DNA of 64,000 bases from Caprella mutica. Lineage: Eukaryota; Arthropoda; Malacostraca; Amphipoda; Caprellidae. The notes beneath the pieces are model-generated. The model worked only from the letters and a program-made list of their open reading frames with translations, was not told the origin of the DNA and did no database searches. The stretch covers positions 1 through 64,000 of the forward strand of contig CANNZV010002338.1 of NCBI GenBank assembly GCA_947561585.1, written 5' to 3'. Within the stretch, counting starts at the first letter, position 1. Each line of letters starts with the position of its first letter. Below, piece after piece: positions 3,236 to 54,450 of this stretch. Position numbers and translations under genes: made by a program.

Positions 3236-3991
3236 ATAAGAAACGATAGTGAGGGAACTGAAAAATGAAGATGCAATTAAAACTTAAGCTGAAGAAGAAA
3301 CTAACGACTGTTTGAACTATCACGCATTCGCAATTTTCGTATACTGTGTTTAAAAAAAAATGCGTTAAAAATTACTTTGCAGAACAAAAAATTAACTTGA
3401 GTGGTTGTGTAAAAAGATTTAAACTGCTCATATGCTTTTCTTAAATATTTATTTGGTCAAAAAGGAAACTTTCTATTTCATGGACCAAGTTATTTAGTGA
3501 TCTTTTTTATGATTGAGATTGGATTAATATAGCAATTAAAATTTGCAATAATAATCGAAGCATTTAACAGTCTGGTTATTTCATTAATTTAACACCGTTT
3601 ATTTTGAATATGTCTTTATCAAATTCATAAGAACAATCATCCCTGCTGACTGACCATTTTACAGTCCTTTGAAGTGACCCTAGCATTCGAAACCTGAGAC
3701 AGAACTTGAAGACCGTGACCAACTCAATCTGGTGATATCAAAGCCAGGAATTATAGCACCGGAACATTCCCTGTCTGAGTATATATCTGTTGTTCCAAGT
3801 TGTTCAAATTAGTTCTCAGTTACCAAGTACAACCATTAATTTGAAGGAAAAAATTCTTGTCACCATATATACCTTCAAATTAGAATTTAATGGATGTTAT
3901 TGTACAAAAATTAAGATTTTATTTCAAATTTTGAACTATTTATCAAAATTTGAGACTAACGTACCTAGATTAGTTTTAATGGATTTAAAAT
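3236..3991. other. AT-rich stretch without a supported gene
   Basis: No repeats or signals of note. An open frame at 3790-3993 runs into the left end of the next MITE and is not credible as a gene. Confidence 0.4.
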
Positions 3992-4216
3992 AGTGTAAAT
4001 TACGAATTATCGGTCAGTTTTACACCCCCGGTCATATAAGAAAAAACGATATTATAATTGTTATTTTATTCTTATTTTATTCTTATTTTATTTGATATCC
4101 AAGATACCTGCAGGTATCATGGATACCAATAAAAATAAAAATAAAATAATTATAATATCGTTTTTTCTTATATGACCGGGAATGTAAAACTGACCGATAA
4201 TTCGTAATTTACCCTA
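3992..4216. mobile_element. Family A MITE with 34-bp palindromic core
   Basis: The left end reads GTAAATTACGAATTATCGGT and the right end is its near-perfect inverted complement, ending in TTTACCCTA. Subterminal CGGTCATATAAGAAAAAACG pairs with its mirror. The centre (about 4094-4127) is GATATCC..GATACCTGCAGGTATC..GGATACC. The whole element is close to one perfect palindrome with no coding capacity. TA-rich flanks suit Tc1/mariner-like or similar target choice, but the duplication is not clear. Confidence 0.88.
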
Positions 4217-5805
4217 CTTCATTTTATTCAAAGAATGTCATTAATGATGCTAGGTATCATTATAAAATAAACTAAACGATTTACAACATTTCACTTCACC
4301 GAATTGATAGAAGAAGAATTCAAGACTGAAGAAGAATGAGACACAATTTATGTCGCAGTCTCCATCAATTCAAATTGACCAAGTTTCTTAATGACTTTGG
4401 AATCTCTTTGTATCCCGGGGCTCTCCATCCTCTGATAGGCCCAATTCTGCAGCCATAAGCAAATAGATAGTCACTCAGCCGTCTCTAAAGAGCCAATTCA
4501 GGGGTCTTCAGATAATTGGCTTAGTTCCTCTCAAGCCCAACCAACAAATAAAGCACAGTGGGTATATCTGGTATATTTTTGTTTTTAAAAATATTTGTAT
4601 AATTTCATTTAAGTCATGTGATGAAAATAAAGTTGAAGCTAAAGTATTCCAAATATCGAAATAAAGATCAACTGCTCTTATGATATTTAGGTATGGGAAA
4701 TTTATAGAGTATTATTAGTATGACGACCGAACTATTACTGATTAGGTTTAGAAATTTAAAGCCAATGTAAATGTACACGGTTAAGAATTATTGGAACATT
4801 CTATTCAGTCTTTTGAAAACCTATAAAATATATATTCATATATTCTACATATTATTTTAAATAATAATTAAGTAAATTAATAACTTGTGATTTCTTATTT
4901 ACAGAAATGAGAGATGAATATGTTTTATGTTGATACATATATATTTGTTATAAGCTTGGTTATACTATCGACACGCATGCATATGATTTCAATAGAAAAA
5001 TGACTTTGCAATATTATAAAATTAGCGTTTACTATATAAATTACTATAGTAAAAGTATTACTACATTTCTTACATCTGTAATATTATAATATTATTTATA
5101 TTTATTTATATTTATATTAATGTTATTTTTATGTAAAGAAGAATTGCTACTATAAAATTTTGCATAGTAAGATCAAAACTGTTACTATCAATATTTTCAG
5201 CCTACTCTAGCACATGTAATAAACCTACGTAGTTCGAATTAATGTGAAAATAGTTCCATTAACCGTAGCAACTAAATAGAATAATCTTTATCATTCCGCA
5301 ATAAAATTATATAATGAATTAACTTCTTCATGATAATTCCAGCCGCAAATGACCCGTAATTCTGCTTCCTAAGTTAGAAGTTTTGTGGTAAAGCAGTTAC
5401 ATTATTGTCTGTAATTAAAATTCTCTGGCATTTCTCTTGAACTGCAATTTCAACTCTAGTCTTCTTGTTGGGGAGTTGATAATAGGGAGAAATTAGCAAT
5501 TTGTTCATTATATTGCATAACGCATTTTAATATATTTTTGTATTAAAATCTCCATTCGATTTAGAGCTGAAAGAAGTACGTGATAGGAATAGTTAATTAA
5601 AGATATATAGAATAATTGTATATTTAATATAATTTCAATGGTAATTCTCATATGAAATATGAAAACTGCTAATATTTAATCAAAATGTTTGAAAAAATAG
5701 AACTAATAATGAAAGAAAGATAATAAAGGAGGAAAATCATTAGTGGATCAGAATAAAGCAATATTTTTTCAAATAGAATATACGACACATGCATGAGTAA
5801 AAATG
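4217..5805. other. AT-rich stretch without a supported gene
   Basis: Mostly low-complexity AT. A patch of more balanced composition at about 4390-4560 has no extended open frame. A TATTTATATT microsatellite-like run lies at about 5085-5125. Confidence 0.4.
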
Positions 5806-6006
5806 ATTCACTGTGATGATGTACTATCGGAGAAAAGAGTCACTGTGATGATGTACTATCAGAGAAAAGAGTCACTGTTATGATGTACTATCAGATAAAA
5901 CAGTCACTTTGATAATGTACTATCAGAGAAAAGAGTCACTGTTATGATGTACTATCAGATAAAACAGTCACTTTGATAATGTACTATCAGAGAAAAGAGT
6001 CGCTGC
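5806..6006 (+). repeat. 32-bp minisatellite, array 1, about 6 copies
   Basis: Unit: AGAGAAAAGAGTCACTGTGA followed by TGATGTACTATC. Variants include GATAAAACAGTCACTTTGATAA, which alternates with the canonical unit and gives a short higher-order pattern. The same unit makes the arrays at 20187-21689 (same strand) and 38536-39276 (opposite strand). Confidence 0.92.
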
Positions 6007-7838: not shown

Positions 7839-7878
7839 TTAGAGCAAATAAAGATAACGTACCAGGGGGCACTAGTAC

Positions 7879-9065
7879 TTTTCCCCGCCGGATCATTCAC
7901 CACCAGACTATTCCCCGCCGGACTTTTCCCCGCTGGATCATTCCCCGCCGGATCATTCCCCGCCGGACTTTTCCCCGCCAGTACTTTTCCCCGCCAGGAT
8001 TATTCCCCGCCGGACTTTTCCCCGCCGAATAAAATAATAGTATTTTAGGCTATTAAATTATAATTTTGATAAAACAAACCATTTATCAATAGAAATCACA
8101 TTTTATTAACAGACTTACACAATAATACAGTCATATTTTTAGCTTTGATTTCTGTATGTGTCAATATTGGTCGTTTATATTTTAAGACCGTGCCTTCGTA
8201 AATTCCCATATAATTAAGATATGCTACAAAGTTCAAAACATTATGGCTATTCTAATGGATTGCAAAATATGTAGCAATTTAGTCTAAGAAGCTACGATTA
8301 ATTCATTTTATTTCTGCTCTAAAGTTATACATATTGCAAATTTATTATTTTTCTTTGCCAGTTATTATTAAAAAAGTTTATCTATTTACTTCTAGTTCAG
8401 ATATTTACTTTTCCAGAAGTATATATTTAATTGTTGTTTATTAATTTTAAAATTAATATAATAGACAACAGAATGAATAATCCTACTATATATTTATTCA
8501 TTACACTTAATATTGGCTTTTTATAGTGTCTTTTTTTTAATTTTGCTTATTTAATATTTATTCCTTAAAGAACTTACAATTTATTAACCATTATAATGAA
8601 AATACATAAGTTAGAGTGTAGAAATCCTTAAATCAAGACTTTTCAAGTGGTCAGATTTGAGGACGATTTAGATATAAAGTCGTACATTTTTTCAAAAAGT
8701 CTCCAATGAAAACTAATTATCGAAAGAGTAACTAAAAAACGAGTTCGGTTCAAGGAGTTGGTTAGTGACCAATTTCCATGCAACAAAGTTTTAAAAAAAA
8801 ATCCAAAATATTGGCTAGTTGCGACGGCAGACTTTGATTTAAAATTTCACGGCAATAGATTTATTGGTCAAAACAATTTTTTTTCTTCAAAAAACTAATT
8901 AAAAAATCTTAATGTTAAATTGTCTTCCAAGATTTAAATTCAAAAAAAATAGGCGGGGAAAAGTCCGGCGAGAAAAAGACCGGCGGGGAAAAGTCCGGCG
9001 GGGAATAGACCGGCGGGGAAAAGTCCAGGCAGGGAAAAGTCCGGCGGATAATAGTCCGTTTCCCG
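7879..9065. mobile_element. Foldback-like element with inverted GC-rich terminal subrepeats
   Basis: The left end (7879-8030) is an irregular tandem array of TTCCCCGCCGGATCA and TTTTCCCCGCCGGAC units. The right end (about 8950-9050) is an array of GGCGGGGAAAAGTCC, the inverse complement of the same unit. About 900 bp of plain AT-rich DNA lies between. The terminal subrepeats make the frames at 7787-8032 and 8912-9139. The architecture matches Foldback/FB-type transposons; no transposase is seen. Confidence 0.75.
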
Positions 9066-20186: not shown

Positions 20187-21689
20187 ACAGAGAAAAGAGT
20201 CACTGTGATGATGTACTATCAGAGAAAAGAGTCACTGTGATGATGTACTATCAGAGAAAAGAGTCACTGTGATGATGTACTATCAGAGAAAAGAGTCACT
20301 GTGATGATGTACTATCAGAGAAAAGAGTCACTGTGATGATGTACTATCAGAGATAAGAGTCACTGTGATGATGTACTACCAGAGAAAAGAGTCACTGTGA
20401 TGATGTACTATCAGAGAAAAGAGTCACTGTGATGATGTACTATCAGAGAAAAGAGTCACTGTGATGATGTACTATCAGAAAAAAGAGTCACTGCGATGAT
20501 GTACTTTCAGAGAGAAGAGTCACAGTGATGATGTACTATCAGAGATAAGAGTCACTGTGATGATGTACTATCAGAGAAAAGAGTCACTGTGATGATGTGC
20601 TATCAGAGAAAAGAGTCACTGTGATGATGTACAATCAGAGAAAAGAGTCACTGCGATGATGTACTATCAGAGAAAAGAGTCACTGCGATGATGTACTATC
20701 AGAGAAAAGAGTCACTGCGATGATGTACTATCAGAGAAAAGAGTCACTGTGATGACGTACTTTCAGAGAGAAGAGTCACTGTGATGATGTACTGTCAGAG
20801 AAAAGAGTCACTGTGATGATGTACTATCAGAGAAAAGAATCACTGTGATGATGTACTATCAGAGAAAAGAGTCACTGTGATGATGTACTATCAGAGAGAA
20901 GAGTCACTGTGATGATGTACTATCAGAGAAAAGAGTCACTGTGATGATGTAGTATCAGAGAAAAGAGTCACTCTGATGATGTACTATCAGAGAAAAGAGT
21001 CACTGTGATGATGTACTATCAGAGAAAAGAGTCACTGTGATGATGTGCTATCAGAGAAAAGAGTCACTGCGATGATGTACAATCAGAGAAAAGAGTCACT
21101 GCGATGATGTTCTATCAGAGAAAAGAGTCACTGTGATGAAGTACTATCAGAGAAAAAAATCACTGTGATGATGTACTATCATAGAAAAGAGTCACTGTGA
21201 TGATGTACTATCAGAGAAAAAAGTCACTGTGATGATGTACTATCATAGAAAAGAGTCACTGTGATGATGTACTATCAGAGAAAAGAGTCACTGTGATGAT
21301 GTACTATCAGAGAAAAGAGTCACTGTGATGATGTACTATCAAAGAAAAGAGTCACTGTGATGATGTACTATCAGAGAAAAGAGTCACTGTGATGATGTAC
21401 TATCAGAGAAAAGAGTCACTGTGATGATGTACTATCAGAGAGAAGAGTCACTGTGATGATGTACTATCAAAGAAAGGAGAAAGAGTCACTGTGATGATGT
21501 ACTATCAGAGAAAAGAGTCACTGTGATGATGTACTATCAGAGAAAAGAGTCACTGTGATGATGTACTATCAAAGAAAAGAGTCACTGTGATGATGTACTA
21601 TCAGAGAAAAGAGTCACTGTGGTGATGTACTATCATAGAAAAGAGTCACTGTGATGATGTACTATCAGAAAAAAGAGTCACTGTGATGA
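20187..21689 (+). repeat. 32-bp minisatellite, array 2, about 47 copies
   Basis: Unit AGAGAAAAGAGTCACTGTGA followed by TGATGTACTATC, the largest of three arrays of this unit. Variants (CACTGCGATG, GTGCTATC, TTTCAGAGAGAAG, TATCATAG) recur at several positions, which suggests block duplication. One unit carries an AAAGGAG insertion near 21470. Confidence 0.95.
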
Positions 21690-26480: not shown

Positions 26481-27183
26481 TAGCTATCATTGCTGTAAAT
26501 TGCATTGTGACGCAAGAGCCCATGTATTTCACCTGAGGTCTAAATTTATGCATTGTAATTTAATGTTACAAAACTAAGTAAAAACTAAGCATATTGCAAT
26601 ATTTTCATTAATTTTGCTCAAATGGGTCTTGAAAGTAAAAAAATCATGATTTTACAGCAACTAGATTCCAGATTTAATAGATGAAAGTTATAATTCCTCC
26701 AGAACAAGCATCTAAGGCACTTTGGTCGTAGATGATTTGGGTGACATTTACAATAATTAAAACTTATTGAATAAGAAAATCGCCATTTATAATAAGGATT
26801 ATTTCTACATAGTACAGAAAGGATAATAAAGAAGCAGTCAAAACATCAATACGTTTTCCGTTCCGAATAGTGAATTATTGTTCATTATTTTAATGGATTC
26901 TGAGGAGCGATGATATCACAGAACACTTTTGATAAAAACGGTCAAACCTCTTGAATTCATGGAGATATTCTAATAGAAAATAAAGCCAACAGCCATTCAT
27001 CTGCCAGATGTAATATTTATGTCGGTTCCGAGATCTTAATCACGTTCCAAAAGATATGCAGAACACCGTAGTATGTATATAGGTACATTCTAAGATTCGC
27101 TGGTGTCCTTAAACTACACTTGGACAAACAATACAGTCTGTAGAGTACATCTGGTTTAAAGTTAGGAAAAAAGGTGTCCTCAG
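26481..27183. other. AT-rich stretch, no supported gene
   Basis: No repeats or convincing open frames. AAGTGACTT-type spacers and short dyads only. Confidence 0.35.
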
Positions 27184-27401
27184 TCCCCCTTCACACTTGC
27201 GTTTCTCAACGCCGCCTTTAAAAAAATGCTCATGGCAAAAAGTTTAGCTACGATTAATTTTAACGGAGCCCTTCACAATTTCGTTTTTTTTAACAAAATT
27301 TTTTTAATGCAAGTGTGAAGGGGTCCGTTAAAAAGCTAGACTTTTTGCTATGAGCATTTTTTTAAAGGTGGCATTGAGAAACGCAAGTGTGAAGGGGGCC
27401 T
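27184..27401. mobile_element. Palindromic MITE, family F
   Basis: The left end is CCCCCTTCACACTTGCGTTT and the right end its inverse, AACGCAAGTGTGAAGGGGGC. Arms continue through CTCAACGCCGCCTTTAAAAA, ATGCTCAT and CAAAAAGT. The centre contains a second, shorter CCCTTCACAA..AAGTGTGAAGGGG pair. Related to the innermost palindrome at 53355-53556. Non-coding. Confidence 0.85.
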
Positions 27402-38535: not shown

Positions 38536-39276
38536 AACATCATCACAGTGACTCTTTTCTCTGAAGTTACATCATCACAGTGACTCTTTTCTCTGATAGT
38601 ACATCATCACAGTGACTCTTTTCTCTGATAGTACATCATCACAGTGACTCTTTTCTCTGATAGTACATCATCACAGTGACTCTTTTCTCTGATAGCACAT
38701 CATCACAGTGACTCTTTTCTCTGATAGTACATCATCACAGTGACTCTTTTCTCTGATAGTACATCATCACAGAGACTCTTTTCTCTGATAGTACATCATC
38801 ACAGAGACTCTTTCCTCTGATAGTACATCATCACAGTGACTCTTTTCTCTGATAGTACATCATCTCAGTGACTCTTTTCTCTGATTGTACATCATCACAG
38901 TGACTCTTTTCTCTGATAGTACATCATCACAGTGACTCTTTTCTCCGATAGTACATCATCACAGTGACTCTTTTCTCTGATAGTACATCATCACAGTGAC
39001 TCTTTTCTCTGATAGTACATCATCTCAGTGACTCTTTTCTCTGATAGTACATCATCTCAGTGACTCTTTTCTCTGATTGTACATCATCACAGTGACTCTT
39101 TTCTCTGATAGTACATCATCACAGTGACTCTTTTCTCTGATAGTACATCATCACAGTGATTCTTTTCTCTGATAGTACATCATCACAGTGACTCTTTCCT
39201 CTGATAGTACATCATCACAGTGACTCTTTTCTCTGATAGTACATCATCACAGTGACTCTTTTCTCTGATAGTACAT
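38536..39276 (-). repeat. 32-bp minisatellite, array 3, inverted, about 23 copies
   Basis: The unit on the plus strand is GATAGTACATCATCACAGTG followed by ACTCTTTTCTCT, the exact complement of the unit in 20187-21689. Variants include CATCTCAG, GATTGTAC and CACAGAGAC. Confidence 0.95.
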
Positions 39277-41742: not shown

Positions 41743-41954
41743 AGGTAAGTTACAGAATATCGATCACTTCCTCATTGTTGGGCGCATAAAAAAAAATATA
41801 AATAATTTTAAATTTGTATTTTAGTTGGTATCCATGATACCTGTAGGTATCATGGATACCAAAACATAAAAAAATATTAACTAGTACTATGTATGTCGTT
41901 ATTTTTATATGTGACCGAAGATGTGAAACTGACTGATAATTCGTAACTAACCCT
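41743..41954. mobile_element. Family A MITE with 34-bp core
   Basis: The left end is degenerate (AGGTAAGTTACAGAATATCG). The right end is ACTGATAATTCGTAACTAAC followed by CCT. The core GGTATCCATGATACCTGTAG with its mirror lies at 41827-41860. Confidence 0.82.
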
Positions 41955-42372
41955 TTATTCTAATACAACATTTTAAATACATATCTATATAAAGGTACTC
42001 AATTCTAATGATATTGTTATATTTGATTATTATTAGCATAAATTAGTGTTATTTTAAATTGTGTAATTACCTCTAAATGAAGTTTACTAAATGTTGTATA
42101 TGTATGTAATTCATTATATAATATCTCTATAATAAAGAATGGAGAAAATTGTTATAAATCAAACACCTGAATAAGCACATACGAGGTTATAATACGAAAA
42201 CACTTTAATTATTTGATATCATTAAATCTGTTATTATTTAAAATACGAATTTTGTGAAGTGTTGAGGCTGTGGAAATTATAATAATTAAAAGATATCAAT
42301 GTTCTTTGATGCAATGGGACAGAATTAGTTATTCTGTCAACGACGGTGATTGAGTACTCACCCCCTCTATTT
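41955..42372. other. AT-rich stretch, no supported gene
   Basis: No repeat or open frame of note. Confidence 0.4.
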
Positions 42373-51070: not shown

Positions 51071-51920
51071 ATAACATCAAATCTTAATAACGATAAAAGT
51101 TTTCAAAACAATCGGAAAGAAAAAGTGATTTTCACACCTTTAGAAAAATTCAGACTGGCAGATGAGGGTGAAAAAAAAAATTCAATTATATAAAATAAGG
51201 AGAACAAACAATTGGATTTTCTAAATGACTTGAGTTTATTTTATTTTTTGACGCAAATTTAACAGTCCAGGTTTTGATGCACGTCTCATCTCGCGGCTGA
51301 GTTCTTGCGAAGAATTAACCGGAAGCTACTTTGCATTCTATACAGAGGTTCGCTTCCGGAGACTGAAAAATGTCCGTCCGAAAACAATTTGGGTGTATCT
51401 TTCTAGATTCTTTGAGAATACCCATTGGGGGGAACCTAAATGTTCATCCATGGGGGAGAGTCTGGCTAATACATAATCTTTACAAATGCGAAGAATTTAC
51501 AGAATGGATTTTTTTTGGAAATGTTCGATTGTACCATAATAGATGTATAACCAATAATATTTAATATTTTACCAATAACTCGGTGAAAAAATGTTTGCTA
51601 TACTAGCAATGTTTTTACTATCATTTTTTACGTAACTGGCTTTGATAATATATTTCAATCCTGATTCAAGTTATGCTTTTAACAATTCAACATGATATAA
51701 TATAATTTATTATATACTATATATAACACATAGGAAGGATCGTATATAGCGTTCTATAATTCAAACTTTATTAAATCCCTTATCATTTTTTCGAATTTAA
51801 TTCGGTTTACGAGAATTTTCAGGTTATCTCTGATGAAAATATCATATATATATTTAAATTTTTTATCATTTAACAATTTTGACTCCCATGTAAATCATGA
51901 ATAAATATCCAAATAAAAAT
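51071..51920. other. Stretch without a supported gene
   Basis: 51290-51550 is of more balanced composition. It has ACCGGAAGC..GCTTCCGG as a loose inverse pair and an ATG frame of 64 codons (51370-51564; contains PIGGNLNVHPWGRVWLIHNL) with no recognised family. The rest is AT-rich. Confidence 0.25.
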
Positions 51921-52130
51921 AGGATAAATTACGAGTTATCGGTCAGTTTCACATCTCCGGTCATATAAGAAAAAACGATGTTATAATAATTGTTAGTTTC
52001 TTTTTATTTTAATTGGTATCCATTATACCTGTAGGTATCATGGATACCAACTAAAATAACAATTATAATATCGTTTTTTCTTATATGATCGCAGATGTGA
52101 AACTGACCGATAACTCGTAATTAACCCTAG
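51921..52130. mobile_element. Family A MITE with 34-bp core
   Basis: AGGATAAATTACGAGTTATC to GATAACTCGTAATTAACCCT. Arms ATCTCCGGTCATATAAGAAA pair with the right side. The core GGTATCCATTATACCTGTAG and its mirror are at 52015-52048. Confidence 0.88.
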
Positions 52131-52948
52131 ACATAAATAGCAGTTTCAGAGTTAAAATTTAGAACTATGATGAAGCCGGAGAATGGCAAGCTGTGTTACG
52201 TTCATTTAATTACGGACCGCAGTGTTACCGTGCCACCCGCAAACTTGTTACAAAGAGACAGATTTACGGGCTATTTCTGTCGGGAAATTCAATAAAAGAA
52301 CGATTAAGGAAATTATTTTCTGTGGATGCGACACAACAGAGTTTTAATTACTAGAAAAAAAAGGAAAGTTTGTTTTGGTGGGGAACTCTTCCAGTCTGAC
52401 ATTTTTTGATGCTTTAGTTGAAAAATGATACAATTTTGTTGAAAGACAAGAATTACTGGATTAATTATGTATCTTAATAATGGTAAAGTTATGGTGGGGC
52501 CAAAGAAGATTAAGGGTTTATCTTCGATGACCCTACTATAACTAAACGTCTCTCTGGTTTCAAATATGCTAATTGTCGAATTTTTCAATAAATTAAATTA
52601 GTTGTTAAGCTAATTTCTTAGTGAAAATTTAATAGAAAACGTCATTTATTTGAACTCAAAATTTCATTGCTTCATTTATATACTTTAATAAGAGCCGCGT
52701 CCGTCTGTCTGTCTGTCCGTGTGTCACAAAATGGGTTAAACAGACATTCTATTAACAGCGCTTCATAACGTTGGTGTAAATTTATAAAAATCAAAGAAAC
52801 TGTAATAATTGAAAATAAAACTAATAATTTGCTGCAGAATCATTGATATGGGTTACACTAAAATTAATAATTGAAATTATAATAATTTGACCCTTGGGAG
52901 TAAAAAATATTATTTTGTTGAATTATATACATTATACATAATGTTTAT
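52131..52948. other. Stretch without a supported gene
   Basis: 52150-52270 is of more balanced composition. A short GTCTGTCTGTCTGTCCGTGT microsatellite is at about 52701-52725. An open frame at 52313-52588 (-) has no recognised motif. Confidence 0.3.
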
Positions 52949-53965
52949 ATACAGTATGGGCCACAAAAATGTTTCCTCTTTTTCAAATATTTATAAATAG
53001 TTAACCGATAGACGAAAAAACTGTATCCTTGGTCTCTTTTCACCGCCTCTTATTGTACTATTAATCAGTAAAAACAATTTTGAACTGATGGACATAGTTT
53101 AAGAACAGGTAAGCAAAGAGTGAAGGTGATTATTTTTGTCATTGCGCAAAGGTTATTCTTAGAGCTAACTTTGTGATTTTACTCACTAAAAGGCAGTGAA
53201 TAAAGGGAAAAATATTATAATGGTAGACATTTTAATACAGGGTGCTTACACTTCTTCCTTAGAAACTATTTGGAAATAGAACAACTTCAGTGACATTTTG
53301 ATCTCATTTAAGTTCTTATTATGAATATTCATTCTTCGTTTGTTCATTGCATGGTTAAGGCCCACTACACACTTGCATTTTTAACACCGCGGAAAAAACT
53401 CTTCTTAAAATGTCTTTAAACTTACGTTGTTTTAACGCTGATGGAAAAATCACATCATATTTTTACTTCAACGATAGAAAAACGCATGTGTGAACACATT
53501 TTAAGAAGAGCTTTTTTCAGCGCTGTTAAAAATGCAAGTGTGAAGCGAGCTTTAACCATGCAATGAACAATTGAAGAATGAATTTTCAGAGTGAAAACTT
53601 CAATGAGATCAAAATGTCACTGAAGTTGTTCTATTTCCAAATAGTTTCCAAGGAAGAAGTGTAAGCACCCTGTATTAAAATGTCTACAAATTATTTTTTT
53701 TCCCCTTTTTTTATTCACTGCCTTTTAGTAAGTAAAATCACAGAGTTAGCTCTAAGAATAACCTTCGCGCAATGACAAAAATAATCACCCTCACTCTTTG
53801 CTTACCTGTTCTTAAACTATGTCCATCAGTTCAGAAATGTTTTGACCAGTTAATAGTACAATAAAAGGCGGAGAAAAAGAGACCAAGATACAGTTTTTTC
53901 GGTCATTGGTTAACGATTTACAAGTATTTGAAAAAGCGGAAACATTTTTGTGGCCCATACTGTAT
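52949..53965. mobile_element. 1-kb composite of three concentric palindromes
   Basis: The outer ends are ACAGTATGGGCCACAAAAAT (52951) and its exact inverse (to 53964), bordered by TA. The middle pair TACAGGGTGCTTACACTTCT lies at 53236 and its inverse ends at 53675. The inner pair TTAAGGCCC..ACACTTGCATTTTTAACA lies at 53355 and 53556. All three share a midpoint near 53456. Each arm is about 460 bp, closely matched throughout, with a loop of about 75 bp. The outer end resembles Tc1-like termini; the inner pair is family F. No coding capacity. Confidence 0.9.
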
Positions 53966-54321
53966 GTATGCATTTGAATATAAACCTAAACTCATTATAT
54001 CAATGGAACCCTCACTGAATGAACAACAGGTACTGTACAAGTAACAAATACATCGTATGCTAAAATACTGGACACTAAAATACCCTGTATTGATCCTATA
54101 CAAGTTTTATAAACACTATTACTATAAACACCAGATCAATAAGATAATATTACAGATACCTAACTGATCATTCTATCACCCCTCACTATAAACTCTCAAT
54201 AACAATTAAGCTTCACAAACTCTGCAAACCTTATCTAAGCTTCAAGTTAAATTATCCTCTCATCACGAAGCTTGAGCTCATTGTTCTATTGAAGTCAGTC
54301 TTCGTATGCGCAGATTGGGAC
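53966..54321. other. AT-rich stretch, no supported gene
   Basis: A minus frame at 53918-54103 begins inside the palindrome and is not credible. The rest is plain sequence. Confidence 0.4.
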
Positions 54322-54450
54322 TAGGGTAAGTTCTTAATTATCGGACAGGTCCACATTTTCGGACACGTAAGAAAAAAATATATGCTAATTTTATTTTATT
54401 TGGTATCCATGATACCTTCAGGTATCGTGGATTCCAAATTTTGTTACTGT
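54322..54450 (+). mobile_element. Half of a family A MITE
   Basis: TAGGGTAAGTTCTTAATTAT, then GGTCCACATTTTCGGACACG and the core at 54402-54435 (GGTATCCATGATACCTTCAG and mirror). The right arm is absent, so the element is truncated just past its centre. Confidence 0.75.

Follow-up and report, generated by a model that had tools for sequence, protein, structure and literature searches.

How can three palindromes come to lie one inside the other around exactly the same midpoint? The question is raised by a locus of the amphipod Caprella mutica, situated in the first 64,000 nucleotides of contig CANNZV010002338.1 (assembly GCA_947561585.1), the whole stretch that we call the window. A first-pass annotation, made from the sequence alone, had proposed that a half element carrying the truncated ends of different miniature inverted-repeat transposable elements (MITEs) was duplicated here by a fold-back event, and fairly recently. 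We report that the locus holds one copy of a composite, long-armed palindromic MITE, which moves as one unit and is repeated throughout the genome. The palindrome did not arise at this locus.

Three inverted repeats share a single midpoint

Comparison of the window with itself yielded a single inverted alignment, 1,044 columns long and 87.5% identical, with an E value printed as 0.0, which excludes chance as the source of the palindrome. Three inverted pairs, 52940-53204 with 53710-53974 (89% alike), 53199-53398 with 53512-53711 (88%) and 53393-53450 with 53459-53516 (79%), have a common midpoint near 53457. The concentric arrangement described in the annotation is thus confirmed, with arms of about 503 bp instead of the 460 bp given there. 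The palindrome extends from 52950 to 53964: its left end reads TA followed by CAGTATGGG and its right end CCCATACTG followed by TA. Beyond the terminal TA the likeness of the arms stops, 23 of 41 aligned flanking bases being different.

Excluding the TA on the left (52950-52951) and on the right (53963-53964), both putative target-site duplications, the composite element itself occupies 52952-53962 and, as a palindrome, has no assigned strand. Its outer layer is formed by a left arm at 52952-53235 (plus strand) and a right arm at 53675-53962 (minus strand). The middle layer consists of a left arm at 53236-53354 (plus strand), which begins with TACAGGGTGCTTACAC, and a right arm at 53556-53674 (minus strand), which terminates with GCACCCTGTA. 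At the centre lies a palindromic MITE (53355-53555, no assigned strand) with TTAA on each side. The termini of the layers lie no more than one or two bases away from the places claimed for them, TACAGGGTGC bounding the middle layer from 53236 to 53674 and TTAAGGCCC the inner layer from 53355 to 53555. The two arms of the window copy differ at 35 of 285 positions in the outer layer, 9 of 119 in the middle layer and 20 of 98 in the inner layer; about seven of the outer mismatches reflect an alignment shift near 53028-53040, a stretch that matches exactly, inverted, in the pair search. No open reading frame of at least 110 amino acids overlaps 52950-53964, and scans of the window against Rfam and for tRNAs revealed nothing.

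The composite is dispersed in more than a thousand copies

We searched the genome to which the window belongs (7,200 contigs, 903 Mb). The best 40 of 2,560 candidate places were scored, the window among them, and these 40 are full matches with 85-91% identity. The other 39 were retrieved; L043, L044 and L046, which are interrupted, were excluded, and the remaining 36 were aligned with the window. The whole layered structure is common to these 37 copies, whereas their flanks are mostly unrelated. Their consensus is 1,014 bp long and individual copies diverge from it by 4-9%. The sequence TACAGT is exact at 66 of the 80 scored ends while the bases beyond are variable; at these 66 ends the target shows A at position -1 in 80% and T at position -2 in 71%.

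A 31-bp arm motif was detected at 2,210 places with up to three mismatches, and its reversed control at none. With two arms per copy, this corresponds to more than 1,000 copies, which is a lower bound as diverged copies escape the motif. Among 100 listed places we chose 13 motif pairs by eye: nine were spaced within 55 bp of the 701 bp of the consensus, and the other four by 849, 1,211, 570 and 341 bp, the last belonging to a short copy, L127, that was read as an internal deletion. No match to the layers was found in eight other 10-kb stretches, nor any match to a 24-bp tip pattern in the viral_contigs collection.

Given its copy number and the structure common to the aligned copies, the palindrome is older than their spread, which rules out a fold-back at the window locus. 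Non-CpG substitutions between copies and consensus amount to 6.1% per site in the outer layer, 5.5% in the middle layer and 6.9% in the inner layer; this similarity indicates that the composite spread as a single piece. The same data bear on an assembly artefact, which the annotation had considered. Long palindromes are hard to assemble, and L043 (on C4017) and L044 (on C954) are a single insertion that appears on both contigs, inversely oriented and between flanks that are 98-99.5% identical; they may be haplotype copies or the result of a recent duplication. However, the structure recurs at the 39 other scored places, uninterrupted at 36 of them; these places belong to many contigs, their flanks are different, and each of the two arms has mutations of its own. 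The probability of an artefact is accordingly negligible.

Outer and middle arms evolve in concert

The annotation had taken the few differences between the arms as a sign of youth. We examined this point with rare variants, defined as those present in at most two copies per arm, columns near gaps being excluded. In 33 cases such a variant recurs at the mirrored position in the other arm of the same copy, whereas 500 shuffles of the labels gave 7.9 such cases on average and never more than 17. The outer layer contributes 13 of the cases (4.1 expected), the middle layer 17 (1.9 expected) and the inner layer 2 (1.7 expected), and one lies at the outermost base. In a tree of the 74 arms, 14 of 26 cherries consist of partner arms from a single copy, compared with a mean of 0.39 and at most 2 in 300 shuffles, and the mean arm distance is 0.092 within copies and 0.107 between copies. 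The outer and middle arms thus evolve in concert, probably by gene conversion, while no such exchange was seen for the inner arms, which are already diverged. Arm divergence is ruled out as a clock by both the mirrored-variant and the arm-tree tests: sequence exchange between the arms gives the palindrome too young an appearance, and the argument for a young age fails. The palindromes of mammalian Y chromosomes are kept alike by gene conversion, and there too the arms of one palindrome are more alike than independent change allows; unlike them, the element described here is a dispersed mobile element of 1 kb.

Only the inner layer is also found alone

In the consensus, the arms differ at 3 of 286 positions in the outer layer, 1 of 119 in the middle layer and 10 of 101 in the inner layer (1.0%, 0.8% and 9.9%). 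The layer-by-layer comparison of the arms, which had been suggested as a test, is therefore what would be expected had the inner element arrived separately. It is a poor clock, however, being confounded by concerted evolution.

The search for single-layer copies succeeded for one layer only. A pattern requiring the inner end preceded by a foreign base gave 44 matches, and at 11 of 30 supplied loci the inner layer stands without any middle or outer layer within the compared stretch. Its nearly full-length relative L065 matches at 169 of 200 positions, and the arms of L065 match each other at 80 of 100, so that an imperfect inner palindrome may be older than the composite. Diagnostic sites occur as is in 13 of 20 cases and swapped in 7, which points weakly in the same direction. 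L059, considered as an un-nested inner element, reads by eye as a deletion derivative. L050, L063 and L071 each carry a further insertion where an edge of the inner element borders on TTAA, and two of the three show TTAA repeated.

No free middle layer was found among 21 matches (three known composites and 18 retrieved places), and a wider pattern gave only the same two places, L103 and L104. Sixteen of the 18 keep the left outer arm. L103 and L104 lack it, the arm being lost exactly at TACAGGG, and were considered as half elements or as middle layers standing free. This reading was rejected since both run into right outer sequence, L103 breaking off inside it and L104 extending to the right outer tip; the sharpness of their left edge is no evidence, as the search pattern itself required that edge. 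An outer-only centre was not found at up to three mismatches in 30 bases, a threshold that older, diverged copies would escape. Of the different MITE types that the annotation had seen in the three layers, the MITE-like ends are present and the inner layer is indeed a different element, whereas the middle layer may count as a separate element on account of a single feature, its TACAGGGTG-like edge.

These observations bear on an ancestral version of the fold-back, in which a half element made of an outer end, the middle stretch and part of the inner one would have been copied inversely by hairpin-primed or template-switch repair and would then have spread. The outer and middle consensus arms are equally alike and neither layer was found alone, as such an event would leave them. 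However, the inner arms differ from each other about ten times as much, and relatives of the inner element whose arms are imperfect stand alone, so that the inner part need not share the event; moreover, concerted evolution alone can equalize the outer and middle arms. We regard a single fold-back of all three layers as rather unlikely. The ancestral outer and middle palindrome may nonetheless have been made by fold-back, since neither of its layers was found alone.

The sites at the centre

To analyse the centring, we joined the consensus flanks across the inner layer, or across the middle and inner layers, and thus obtained an inferred middle and an inferred outer palindrome. The inferred middle palindrome (242 bp) contains only one TTAA, which is exactly central, and this makes the exact centring of the inner element less odd. 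The inferred outer palindrome (574 bp) contains 55 TA, none of which, apart from that at the centre, is the midpoint of a perfect palindrome of at least 8 bp.

Three sequential insertions at the exact centre, by transposases favouring symmetric targets, would fit these two central sites. In D. melanogaster, inverted-repeat transposons as a rule have palindromic target motifs (PMC3276498), which makes centre-seeking insertion plausible, and concentric arrangements recur with other elements, as described below. One of 39 copies, L016 (C1485:129846-131646), lies at the centre of a flanking palindrome of about 105 bp with 92% identity; either the element inserted into the middle of a palindrome or the flank was later duplicated in inverse. 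On the other hand, there is no clear palindrome in the flanks of the remaining copies: 3 of 40 copies scored at least 15, as did 3 of 466 mismatched pairs, and L016 alone was strong. Neither a free middle layer nor an outer-only element was found, and the centre is one of 10 TTAA if the inner element entered the joint outer and middle palindrome. In plants, nested insertions of long terminal repeat (LTR) elements are reported to have palindromes no longer than those of shuffled sequence (PMC6911290). Sequential insertion is thus a possible but tentative account of the composite.

A probable composite ancestor and its spread

The explanation that we consider probable is that of a non-coding palindromic transposon family of about 1,014 bp, whose ancestor became composite by gaining the inner MITE and whose copies then spread with arms evolving in concert. 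The ancestor would have been a near-perfect outer and middle palindrome with arms of about 405 bp. An older palindromic MITE with a separate existence would have entered its central TTAA, and the finished composite would then have been amplified to more than 1,000 copies. The CAGTATGGG ends and the flanking TA suggest a Tc1/mariner-like mover; such a transposase would move the whole element, with a preference for TATATA targets. Within copies, the outer and middle arms would keep exchanging sequence, presumably by gene conversion.

Several observations weigh against this explanation. The scored copies, being the best of their candidates, are not a random sample, and in the tree test the nearest neighbour of an arm is its partner from the same copy for only 7 of 37 copies. 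A centre free of the inner element was not found at up to three mismatches in 28 bases, a threshold that older, diverged copies would escape. The right edges of standalone inner elements are exactly TTAA in none of the eight readable cases and one base off in six. The element encodes no DDE/D transposase, and no transposase or autonomous partner turned up, in an analysis that did not extend to elements sharing only the tips. Finally, the outer TA would be a target-site duplication by its position, no empty site having been seen.

Other concentric palindromes and repeats

We surveyed palindromes in 104 kb, namely the window and four 10-kb stretches. Thirty-two centred palindromes passed the tandem-array filter, and several of them have a common centre with different arms or common arms with different centres. 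A 38-bp palindromic core, TTGGTATCCATGATACCTGCAGGTATCATGGATACCAA, made of GGTATC/GATACC repeats around CTGCAG, occurs at 3,973 places with at most one mismatch, the pattern being its own complement. It lies at or near the centre of unrelated arms in the window at 1207-1473, 3988-4219, 41744-41955, 51918-52130 and 54321-54438, and is also central or nearly so in the palindromic MITEs L057, L076 and L107-L126.

The flanks of the core were inspected at 20 exact places, taken from the first listed contigs. Arms of family A (the 1207-1473 type) are present on both sides at eight places, arms of family B (the 51918-52130 type) on both sides at eight, and a family arm on one side only at four, with no mixture of A and B; some of these assignments, such as L109 and the right side of L116, are weak. 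Apart from a single 12-bp stretch close to the core, the two families have nothing in common but matches of 7 bp, and family B arms also flank other centres. With two unrelated arm families around one core, the concentric combination is not peculiar to the three-layer element. The palindromic MITEs at 27182-27401 of the window, L053, L060 and L073 have CACACTTGCG ends and a further, similar CACACTTGCG repeat surrounding the centre, which is another two-layer arrangement. A general process might be at work, in which cores and unrelated arm pairs join repeatedly around one centre and arm-to-arm copying keeps the symmetry, the three-layer element being one product; we put this forward as a conjecture, with less than even confidence.

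The window also contains many minisatellites, among them a 32-bp unit in three arrays (5801-6005, 20188-21689 and 38537-39276), one of which is inverted. Two short G+C-rich tandem arrays, at 7877-8027 and 8952-9058, are oriented towards each other with about 1 kb between them; their units are ACTATTCCCCGCCGG and its complement type.

Classification and implications

The many short dispersed copies with sharp common ends in unrelated flanks, together with the lack of coding capacity, identify the composite as a MITE. MITEs of the Tc1/mariner type, of which the Bari MITEs of Drosophila are reportedly an example, have TA at their ends, inverted repeats, no coding sequence and a high copy number. 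The family resembles them in all these respects; the TA that adjoins its CAGT tips at 66 of 80 ends may be a target-site duplication. It differs from them in that its arms span nearly the whole 1-kb element, a second element occupies the exact centre and no transposase is linked to it. With TTAA on both sides in the composite but inexact right edges in its standalone relatives, the inner element may belong to a TTAA-target superfamily (piggyBac or Kolobok type).

Inverted repeats over most of the element also give it a foldback-like form, in architecture and not in ancestry. Foldback-like elements such as Galileo similarly have very long inverted repeats able to fold back (PMC4168063), but the TA ends of the element described here point elsewhere, and no transposase is known for it. 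No concentric palindromic MITE was recognized in the titles and abstract openings of the papers listed by literature searches, which is no proof of absence. The strand is predicted to fold into one long hairpin of -658 kcal/mol, a value without shuffled control at that length, and an RNA, if transcribed, would fold as a single long hairpin. The annotation, in naming Dicer-2 as the processing enzyme, had assumed an insect setting.

Since the arms evolve together, the likeness of inverted-repeat arms is unusable for dating such elements. Should centre-to-centre combination prove general, short MITEs could grow into long palindromes by a simple path, and such palindromes may give rise to hairpin RNA and to chromosome breaks.
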